Shown: positions 4,936 through 50,703 of the stretch, one piece after another | How positions within the stretch are numbered: the first letter of the stretch is position 1 | How the letters are laid out: each line of letters opens with the position of its first letter | Source of the DNA: Phycisphaeraceae bacterium D3-23 | GTDB lineage: Bacteria; Planctomycetota; Phycisphaerae; Phycisphaerales; Phycisphaeraceae | Assembly (NCBI GenBank): GCA_039555135.1 | Contig: CP114179.1 | Location: 1,674,001-1,738,000, forward strand | Direction: 5' to 3' | DNA: 64,000 nucleotides | Made by a program: the position numbers and the translations under genes | Notes under the pieces: generated by a model | Databases searched by the model: none | Seen by the model: only the letters and a program-made list of their open reading frames with translations | Told to the model about the DNA's origin: nothing

Positions 4936-5232
4936 CGAGGGGCTCGCTCGGGGGTGGTCGGGACGGTCGGCGCTCTGCCGGCTCTCGTAGTATCGGAGCG
5001 CCGCGCGGCCGAGATAAGCCGACCTGCCCCCGCAACCCCACTCCCCCGAAGCGCTCAGGCCGGAGACCCTGCGCCACCGCGCAACGCCTTACAGGCCGTA
5101 CAAAACGCACCCTGCAGCGCATGAGAAACCCGCGGGCAGGACCCGCGGGCTTCATCGTTACAACGCGTTGTTGGGTCGGGCGGTTGCCATCGACGCCCGT
5201 GCCTGTTTTATCGGCGAAGGATCGGCATTGCT
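4936..5232. other. intergenic region between PilZ gene and pilT
   Basis: About 297 bases without a convincing reading frame. It contains the terminator hairpin at 5129-5149 and presumably the pilT promoter, for which I see no good -35/-10 pair. Confidence 0.5.
5125..5149 (-). terminator. probable intrinsic terminator of the PilZ gene
   Basis: Two copies of CCCGCGGG (5129-5136 and 5142-5149) form an 8-bp stem with a 5-base loop. On the minus strand the stem is followed by TTTCTC. It lies about 85 bases past the PilZ stop codon and before pilT. Confidence 0.6.
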
Positions 5233-48795: not shown

Positions 48796-49128
48796 ATGTA
48801 CCGGGATACCCGCGAGGTCTACTGCGAAGCGTGCGGCTACAACCTGCGCGACCAGTACAGCGGCGATTGCCCCGAATGCGGCAACGCCTACGACCGTGGA
48901 AAAGGCACGGGCTACCGGGATACCCCGTTCGATCCGATCGGGCAGTGGCTGCTCAGGAACGGTCGATTATTCGGCGCGGTTTTCTACATCACACTTTTTA
49001 CAGTCTTCGCGGTTCTCTACGCAATATCGCGTGAACGCCAACACCTCTTCTGGGCCATCGCGATGGCGGCGCTCGGGTTCGGCGACATGCTGCTCTATTT
49101 CCTCCGGTCACACAAGCAAAAGGGCTGA
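48796..49128 (+). CDS. small membrane protein with N-terminal zinc-ribbon
   Basis: This 110-residue protein has four Cys in two CxxC pairs (CEACGYNLRDQYSGDCPECG, residues 10-29), a likely zinc ribbon. Two hydrophobic segments follow (FGAVFYITLFTVFAVLYAIS; LFWAIAMAALGFGDMLLYFL). Small ribbon-plus-membrane proteins of this kind are common in Planctomycetes and have no assigned role. The TACAAT-N6-ATG arrangement suggests a leaderless mRNA. Its stop is three bases before the start of the selenoprotein candidate, so they probably form an operon. Confidence 0.75.
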   Translation: MYRDTREVYCEACGYNLRDQYSGDCPECGNAYDRGKGTGYRDTPFDPIGQWLLRNGRLFGAVFYITLFTVFAVLYAISRERQHLFWAIAMAALGFGDMLLYFLRSHKQKG

Positions 49129-49130
49129 TC

Positions 49131-50597
49131 ATGACACGCGCTCGGCTACTCGCCCTCCTCATGGCCGCGACCTGCCTCGTATTCGCAAACCCATCAATCG
49201 CCGGCCCCGCGCAAACGCAGGTGGGCGAGCCCTTCCCCGACCTGGTCTTCCCCACCGTCGATGGCGAATCGGCCGTCCGGTTGTCCGACCACCAGGGCAA
49301 GCGGGTCCTCCTCATCGAGTTCGCCTCGTGGTGAGCGGGCTGCAGACGACGCACGCCCGGGTGGCGTGACATGACCCAGCCCTACATCGACGCCGGCGAA
49401 CTGGTCGTCATCGGCCTCGTCCAGGAACAACACCCCGAACGCGCCCAGCTCTATGCCCAGTGGCGCGAGCTCGACTGGCCGATCCTCTGGGACCCGTTCA
49501 ACACCACCGGCGCGACGGCCGTGCCCAACGCCTACCTCATCGACGAGCACGGCATCCTGCAAGGCAAGCGGCTGAACGAGGACTCGCTCGCGGCGTTTAT
49601 GGCGGCGGCGTTTGAGGCGCCGGCGATAGAGCCAATAGCAGCGGCTTCAGCAGACGGACTGGTCAGACCCTCTATACGAAACATGAGCGAAGATGAAGCG
49701 TATTACTGGAATGCCATCAGCAATATGAACTGGAGCGTTACTGGCAGGCAACCCGTTGCGGGAGGTCTAGGCAGCGGAAGTCGTCGCAACATGCAGATTC
49801 CGGCCATCAGTGATGCAATCGCCGAGGCACTCAACTACCCCGAAGAAGAACGCCGGCGTGCCTATGAGTACTTCCGCCTCGGCGTCCTCTACCGCATGCG
49901 TCACGACTCGGAACACCGCCAAGGTGGTGACTTCCAAGCGGCCATTGACGCGTGGGAACACGCGCTCGAACTCGACCCCAACCAATACATCTGGCGACGC
50001 CGCATCCAGCAGTACGGGCCGATGTCGGACAAGCCGTACCCGTTCTACGACTGGGTCGCCACCGCGCAGCGCGAGATCACCGAGCGGGGCGAGGTGCCGG
50101 TCGCCATCCCGCAGGCGCTGACACAGGCGGAGCTGGGCACCGAGGGCTCCGCGCTCGTGCCCGAAGGTGAGCCCGTCAACCCCGACCCCGATGGCCGTAT
50201 CACCGCCGACGACACCGGCATCATCACGGTCACCGCCGCCTCGACGCCCGACACCCAGACCCCCGGCAGCCGGCGTGTGTTAGTCGAGTTCGCCACGAGC
50301 AATGCAGGGCATTGGAACAACGAGGCCGAGCCGTTGACCGTGTGGATCAACGCGGACGACTTGCCCGACGGCTGGTCGGTCGAGTCGCCGCTGCTCATCC
50401 ACGCCCCCGGCCACGCGGTCGAGCAGGCCAGCTCCGACGAGCCCCGCATCATCGACTTCGGCCTCACCCACCCCGCCGACGCGGCGGGCGCGTTCACCCT
50501 CACCGGCTACGCGCTCTACAACGTCTGCGAAGCCGACGACCTGGGCCGATGCCTCTACCGCCGGCAGGCGTTCGAGGTGGTGATCGAGCTGGAGTGA
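49131..50597 (+). CDS. thioredoxin-fold selenoprotein candidate (in-frame TGA at codon 68)
   Basis: Read through the TGA at 49332-49334, the frame gives 488 residues. The signal peptide is MTRARLLALLMAATCLVFA. The redoxin domain starts GEPFPDLVFPTVDGESAVRL, continues RVLLIEFASW-U-AGC, and resumes with LVVIGLVQEQHPERAQLYAQ, WPILWDPFNTTGATAVPNAY and LIDEHGILQGKRL. Sec68 falls exactly on the first Cys of WCxxC, with Cys71 as resolving residue. A 6-bp hairpin with loop CGGGT lies 23 bases after the TGA. The second half has a short TPR-like stretch (AIDAWEHALELDPNQYIWRR) and a beta-rich C-terminal domain. AAGGG lies six bases before the ATG. The alternative, a nonsense mutation that splits the gene, is less likely because the frame is otherwise intact. 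It should act as a periplasmic redox protein. Confidence 0.78.
49352..49368 (+). promoter_or_regulatory. bacterial SECIS-like hairpin
   Basis: CACGCC (49352-49357) and GGCGTG (49363-49368) form a perfect 6-bp stem with a 5-base loop CGGGT. The loop begins 23 bases after the TGA, inside the 16-37 base range reported for bacterial SECIS elements, and has G among its first two bases, as the published consensus requires. Confidence 0.6.
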
Positions 50598-50606
50598 TCC
50601 CTGAAA

Positions 50607-50703
50607 GTAGGACAGGCATTCCTGCCGGTCATTCGGCGAAGCCGAACGATACCGACAACACACCTGGCCTTCGGCCAGTGACAGGCAGGAATGCCTGTCC
50701 TAC
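50607..50703. repeat. palindromic repeat family E
   Basis: The left arm (50607-50630) starts GTAGGACAGGCATTCCTGCC. The right arm (50680-50703) is GACAGGCAGGAATGCCTGTC plus CTAC. An inner pair (CTGGCCTTCGGCCAG) lies in the middle. It sits between the selenoprotein candidate and a GNAT gene and may act as a terminator. Confidence 0.75.

Follow-up and report, generated by a model that had tools for sequence, protein, structure and literature searches.

TlpA, ResA and Etrx2 have the same fold as the redoxin domain described here, and their WCxxC motif occupies the same position. However, the entries listed for these proteins are single-domain Cys proteins, whereas the present family adds selenocysteine (Sec), a TPR-like segment and a DsbD-alpha-like domain to the chain. 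The alpha domain of DsbD (PF11412) shares profile similarity and both cysteines with this last domain, which here lies at the C-terminal end, behind a redoxin and without the membrane part of DsbD. In DsbD, this Cys pair is redox-active, and thioredoxin-fold partners such as CcmG receive electrons from the alpha domain.

Sec-containing redoxins have also been catalogued. The nearest NCBIfam model is NF041054 ('ResA-like WAxxUGC motif-containing protein'), in which TPR-like helices likewise come after a Sec-type redoxin. No NCBIfam model (June 2026) scored above its cut-off for the protein studied here, which reached 54.4 bits with NF041054 against a curated cut-off of 300. All members of the 69-member set defined below matched NF041054 at E 0.001 or better, the best at only E 1.1e-26. 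The motifs differ, since UGC has one residue fewer than the UAGC of the present family, and three loci assigned to NF041054 by motif only (L166-L168) showed no match to the C-terminal domain. Two reviews include an entry named 'Redoxin family protein, UxxC', in both cases as a single table line giving one accession (MBA3499694.1 in PMC9312934; HEU0032618.1 in the table of PMC13188914). This is a Sec redoxin with UxxC like the protein studied here, and the entry may include the present family. Selenoprotein genes are reported in two planctomycetes in the available part of PMC4807772, and the available parts of PMC2398784, PMC5029168 and PMC12013277 do not show the family. Among the titles and abstract beginnings of the open-licence papers listed by searches of the selenoprotein literature, none describes a Sec protein with a redoxin-TPR-DsbD-like architecture. 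This combination seems to constitute a selenoprotein family without a name.

The gene lies in a stretch of 64,000 nucleotides from Phycisphaeraceae bacterium D3-23 (the window), itself part of a genome assembled as one contig of 4.62 Mb. As a preliminary description made from the letters had proposed, the frame opens with the ATG at 49131, contains a single internal TGA at 49332-49334 and ends with the TGA at 50595-50597, encoding 488 residues plus the stop (Table 1). Residues 64-71 read FASW-U-AGC, which places U68 and C71 in the active site, and 421 codons are open after the internal TGA. In the standard-code list of open reading frames of at least 80 aa, this frame is represented only from ATG 49371 onward (408 aa).

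Table 1. Features of the Sec-redoxin gene, in window coordinates.
Feature	Position	Strand	Basis
Read-through coding frame, 488 residues with Sec68	49131..50597	+	Frame reading and relatives
Probable signal peptide, residues 1-25, end approximate	49131..49205	+	Model helix, crude hydropathy
TlpA/ResA-like redoxin domain, residues 28-163	49212..49619	+	Pfam and structure matches
UGA codon, putative Sec68, first redox position of WUxxC	49332..49334	+	TGA throughout the family members compared
Cys71, predicted resolving residue	49341..49343	+	84/84 aligned
SECIS hairpin, stem 49352-49357/49363-49368, loop CGGGT 49358-49362	49352..49368	+	Covariation, codon-matched null, extended set
TPR-like helices, residues 224-293	49800..50009	+	Pfam TPR (sub-threshold in window protein), model helices
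Strongly conserved block around YIWRRRIQQYGP..KPYPFYDW, residues 286-308	49986..50054	+	Family alignment
DsbD-alpha-like C-terminal domain, residues 361-488	50211..50594	+	hhalign against DsbD_N; model pLDDT 94.9
Cys466, C-terminal pair	50526..50528	+	84/84 aligned
Cys474, C-terminal pair	50550..50552	+	83/84 aligned

The surroundings of the gene were also inspected. A 110-aa open reading frame at 48796-49128 ends two bases before the ATG; it contains two CxxC motifs and hydrophobic stretches, has only sub-threshold Pfam matches, and is perhaps cotranscribed with the Sec-redoxin gene. Just 3' of the gene, at 50603-50703, there is an inverted repeat with gacaggcattcctgcc / ggcaggaatgcctgtc, perhaps a dispersed repeat, for which Rfam returned sub-threshold matches only. 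Two sub-threshold Rfam matches were obtained, neither bearing on the Sec-redoxin gene, and a promoter scan found nothing.

Relatives were collected by a scan of species genomes, from which the best 80 of 123 confirmed relatives were used, and by a search of 200 related genomes, which contributed 5 further members. With the window, the family set comprises 86 members, 85 of them distinct (L026 and L134 are one record). TGA occupies the aligned codon in all 86, whose MAG labels span seven phyla, and the frame stays open after it in 84; the interrupted copies are L030, split after 135 codons, and L100. The latter (5115-5162, in a Gemmataceae MAG) has an in-frame TAG five codons after the UGA and is either a broken copy or a sequence error. 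Both were left out of the 84-row alignment. A 69-member set was obtained from the 86 by removing near-duplicates, L030, L100 and the loci from the related-genome search, and a 68-member set, used for the Pfam search of the C-terminal domain, by further removing L114.

The preliminary description had proposed that Sec68 stands in for the first Cys of WCxxC with Cys71 as the resolving residue, and had suggested looking for Cys or Sec at residue 68 in homologues. The comparison supports the proposal: the 86 family members have TGA, and 27 more distant redoxins have mostly Cys at this position (22 Cys, 3 TGA, 1 Ala, 1 Ser). A Cys form of the family was not found among the 86 members, which in the main scan were the best 80 of 123 relatives; one of the six peptide patterns of the scan had Cys at the site, so that Cys forms were not selected against. 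Furthermore, in a phylum sample of 392 genomes, 45 had a match to the family profile at E 1e-20, comprising 42 genomes with this family and three (G201, G256 and G323) with a sister type, WASWUGC. TGA was read directly at the site in all 42 (36 + 6); 12 of these 36 loci recur, with identical sequence, in the 86-member set. A redoxin-TPR paralogue (L165; G219:C197:29000-32000, - strand) reads FASWDNSR, a site with neither Sec nor Cys.

The hairpin downstream of the UGA had been described beforehand as a 6-bp stem with a CGGGT loop, the stem beginning 17 nt and the loop 23 nt after the TGA, and this geometry was recovered in full. Its agreement with bacterial SECIS rules had been put forward as an argument, which proved weaker than supposed. 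When the rules given in section 5 of PMC13188914 were scripted, 84 of the 86 genes complied, in some via a different hairpin. However, so did 144 of 258 windows drawn at random from these GC-rich genes, so a rule match is weak evidence and the comparison between relatives carries the case. In addition, the hairpin in the window is no more stable than shuffled sequences (z -0.47 for 32 nt and -0.60 for 46 nt), and the 46-nt stretch folds preferentially into another structure.

Across 78 aligned segments (77 distinct), 97.6% of stem cells are paired, and at four of the six pairs both partners vary; such double changes number 17 cells, compared with 2.1 after shuffling. Pairing falls to 20-53% when the partners are slid out of register, and RNAalifold, unprompted, returned the same six pairs. 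The two innermost pairs are invariant across the aligned segments because Pro and Trp codons fix them. The second loop base (column 28) is G in 78/78. In a codon-matched null, residues 74, 75, 79 and 80 were redrawn by the codon usage of each gene with the amino acids held fixed; 232 of 234 cells were paired in the observed segments against 182.3 +/- 4.4 in the null, and 0 of 2000 draws was as high. In an extended set of 101 distinct segments of the main type, the inner five pairs are kept in 98 and all six in 86, the inner stem being absent in three. Neither the SECIS rules nor folding energy is discriminating by itself; judged by covariation across these alignments, the predicted hairpin is real.

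The pairing shows at residues 75 and 79, whose codons mirror each other while the amino acids vary: GTG-CAC, GTA-TAC, GTC-GAC, ATT-AAT, ATA-TAT, GTT-AAC and CTG-CAG (V/H, V/Y, V/D, I/N, I/Y, V/N and L/Q), with ACG-CGT (T/R) in the window. Exceptions are ATT-AAC, GTG-CAG and ATG-CAA, one each; several others form G-U pairs. The window gene thus has Thr75 and Arg79 where Val and His (GTG-CAC) are common, and its stem is kept by two compensated pairs. Eight members with a URGC motif (L057, L062, L063, L066, L069, L078, L087 and L124) have the hairpin CCAGRCCG-TGC-CGGYCTGG. These loci seem to use a shifted hairpin, with few changes in its support, and because of the shift they were left out of the covariation counts. 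In the sister loci with WASWUGC (L166-L168), a hairpin occupies the corresponding place, shifted by one codon towards the UGA, with the mirrored codons CTG-CAG; the SECIS element may therefore predate the split between the two types.

The age and history of the window copy bear on whether its TGA could be a nonsense mutation and the gene a pseudogene. In a tree of 69 sequences, this copy has a long branch (1.12) and belongs to a supported set of 14 that otherwise contains 12 planctomycetes and one unlabelled sequence, and none of 50 compared genomes of its genus and family has a match better than 8.9e-12, the level of an ordinary redoxin. Both observations would suit a decaying gene, yet every member compared has TGA at the same codon, the 421 codons that follow are open, and the two compensated pairs keep the stem exactly at the differing residues Thr75 and Arg79. 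The pseudogene reading is contradicted by the family comparison and was rejected as vanishingly improbable. In the same tree, phylum labels are clustered but not clean (5 changes for Planctomycetota, 6 for Acidobacteriota), so transfer is possible, although MAG labels can be wrong. Simple clustering of open reading frames around the 86 loci, many of which are cut by contig ends, revealed no conserved gene neighbourhood, and the widest cluster covered 5 loci.

The genome encodes the machinery for Sec insertion, for which the preliminary description had recommended a search. The tRNA-Sec gene (selC) scored 65.3 bits against a cut-off of 47, and ARAGORN assigned it the anticodon tca. Directly before it lies selA (522.5 bits, cut-off 267.9), preceded by selB (360.6 bits, cut-off 242.25), and selD is near these genes (360.8 bits, cut-off 125). 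The selD gene is itself of the Sec type, with an in-frame TGA at CGGUAGK. Thus, neither observation that had been named as fatal to the proposal, a genome devoid of selB and selC or homologues with neither Cys nor TGA at the site, was made. In the phylum sample, selB occurs in 44 of the 45 genomes with a family-profile match against 236 of 392 overall (Fisher p 1.5e-9, with genomes treated as independent); the exception, G382, is family-positive with no selB match in a draft that is 88% complete. The family gene and selB are about 3 kb apart on one contig in G054, sel genes share the fetched stretch with the family gene in L072 and L026/L134 (one record), and L092 has a weak partial selB-like match on that stretch. 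The genome also has a second, short TlpA-like redoxin frame with an in-frame TGA (L022, 4520152-4520442; FFATWUGPC), which is probably another selenoprotein.

The presence of a UGA-decoding tRNA-Sec also bears on whether the UGA is read as another amino acid, or whether ribosomes start again at ATG 49371 and make a separate protein of 408 aa. An open reading frame from that ATG does exist under the standard code. However, the AGCRxxxPxW segment between the TGA and the ATG is conserved, with C71, R72, P76 and W78 invariant in 84/84, and we know of no role for the covarying hairpin in translation restart. Decoding of UGA as another amino acid is further opposed by the window gene itself ending in TGA, as do many of its relatives. 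On these four grounds (conserved segment, terminal TGA, tRNA-Sec and hairpin), other decoding and restart were both rejected and are considered very improbable. Decoding of the UGA at 49332 as Sec68 is, on the sequence comparisons, nearly certain.

The redoxin domain matched AhpC-TSA (40.3 bits) and Redoxin (30.9 bits) in Pfam, both above cut-off. Its structure matches reached Z about 15 and included peroxiredoxins, and the family profile matched Etrx2 (2yp6) at E 1.2e-16. As expected of a TlpA/ResA-like redoxin, the domain has a thioredoxin fold and a WCxxC-type site, in which the attacking Cys is replaced by Sec. AlphaFold2 modelled the whole protein with a pLDDT of 85 and a pTM of 0.85. In this model, residues 2-17 form a hydrophobic N-terminal helix, and a crude hydropathy test for a signal peptide was passed by 61 of 83 relatives, so that export of the protein is plausible. 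Pfam assigned TPR to the TPR-like stretch of the preliminary description in roughly two of every three members (TPR_11 in 46/69) and sub-threshold in the window protein, and the YIWRRRIQQYGP..KPYPFYDW block is near-invariant in the 84-row alignment.

The extra C-terminal domain, also anticipated, is present and could be identified. Pfam gave no match for this domain in the window protein, the gathering score for PF11412 not being reached, and over the 68 members it returned DsbD_N weakly in 5 and NPCBM_assoc in 13. When the profile of the domain was compared by hhalign with 26 DsbD_N sequences, the probability was 95.1 (E 3e-8, 116 columns) and both Cys were matched, against at most 1.2 for 30 column-shuffled controls and 0.3 for a reversed one. 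These 26 sequences, from the window's relatives, were taken from 30 loci, with L197, L199, L203 and L204 left out (L204 for a stop in the extended stretch). The domain alone was modelled at a pLDDT of 94.9, and its last two strands carry the Cys pair. Foldseek and VIA-align found Ig-like and adaptin-ear-like sandwiches, with no DsbD among the matches listed, and a PDB sequence search with the domain found nothing. On profile similarity the domain is DsbD-alpha-like, and this name was preferred to filing it as a DsbD_N member because the PF11412 gathering score was not reached. In the same genome, L204 (4539218-4539553) matches DsbD_N and forms the C-terminal end of what appears by eye to be a DUF255/YyaL-type protein, a further case of a thioredoxin-fold protein ending in a DsbD-alpha-like domain.

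In the 84-row alignment, U68, C71 and C466 are conserved in 84/84 and C474 in 83/84, and the next Cys column in 41/84. With the conserved pair that belongs to the C-terminal domain, the conserved redox residues number four: Sec68, Cys71, Cys466 and Cys474. Comparison supports these four residues, the domains, the RNA hairpin and the predicted Sec at position 68; we infer export, the direction of electron flow, the partners and the substrate. In the proposed mechanism, SelB would bring Sec-tRNA(Sec) to the UGA at 49332, guided by the hairpin at 49352-49368. Sec68 would be the attacking residue of the WUxxC redoxin site, with Cys71 resolving. The Cys466/Cys474 pair would most likely exchange electrons with the Sec68-Cys71 selenylsulfide, forming a redox relay within one chain. 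Electrons would reach this relay from a membrane DsbD-type protein, and their targets would be oxidised thiols, or related oxidised groups, on envelope proteins. The same genome encodes a DsbD-like protein (L205) that combines DsbD_N, DsbD_TM and thioredoxin parts, which makes a supply of electrons in the envelope plausible. A less likely partner is the DsbD_2 protein L206, whose neighbours resemble cbb3-oxidase assembly genes on inspection by eye.

The C-terminal pair could instead form a structural disulfide or belong to a docking surface. The Sec-redoxin of the selenoprotein would then work by itself, with reductase or AhpC/TSA-type peroxidase activity, and would be reduced by a separate thioredoxin. 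AhpC-TSA and Redoxin being the best Pfam matches, the peroxiredoxins among the structure matches and the lack of a DsbD fold among those listed for the C-terminal domain give this alternative appreciable weight, and we judge it a possibility somewhat short of even. Against it, Cys466 and Cys474 are almost invariant and align with the DsbD_N pair, WUxxC is the arrangement of TlpA and ResA, and the best NCBIfam models after NF041054 are ResA and TlpA. The likely function is that of an exported thiol:disulfide oxidoreductase in which electrons pass between the DsbD-alpha-like domain and the Sec-redoxin, along a path that we infer. The complete proposal, namely an exported selenoprotein with a Sec68 redoxin, a DsbD-alpha-like relay, a DsbD-type donor and envelope substrates, is given slightly better than even chances.

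For the family as a whole, we would put at even odds the view that it is a widespread selenoprotein family without its own name, in which Sec is apparently obligatory, a DsbD-alpha-like domain behind the Sec-redoxin makes a self-contained envelope seleno-thiol relay, and the SECIS element forces mirrored codons around the Pro-x-Trp that follows the active site. Such genes are cut short by gene callers that treat UGA as a stop, and annotations therefore probably conceal the family. With no Cys form among the members examined, it would lend itself well to finding out what Sec can do and Cys cannot. Because a redoxin and a DsbD-alpha-like domain occur in one chain, an electron transfer that is normally examined between separate proteins could be followed inside a single one. 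Finally, the mirrored codons, which would link the amino acids on either side of Pro-x-Trp, show with unusual clarity how a bacterial SECIS element constrains protein sequence.
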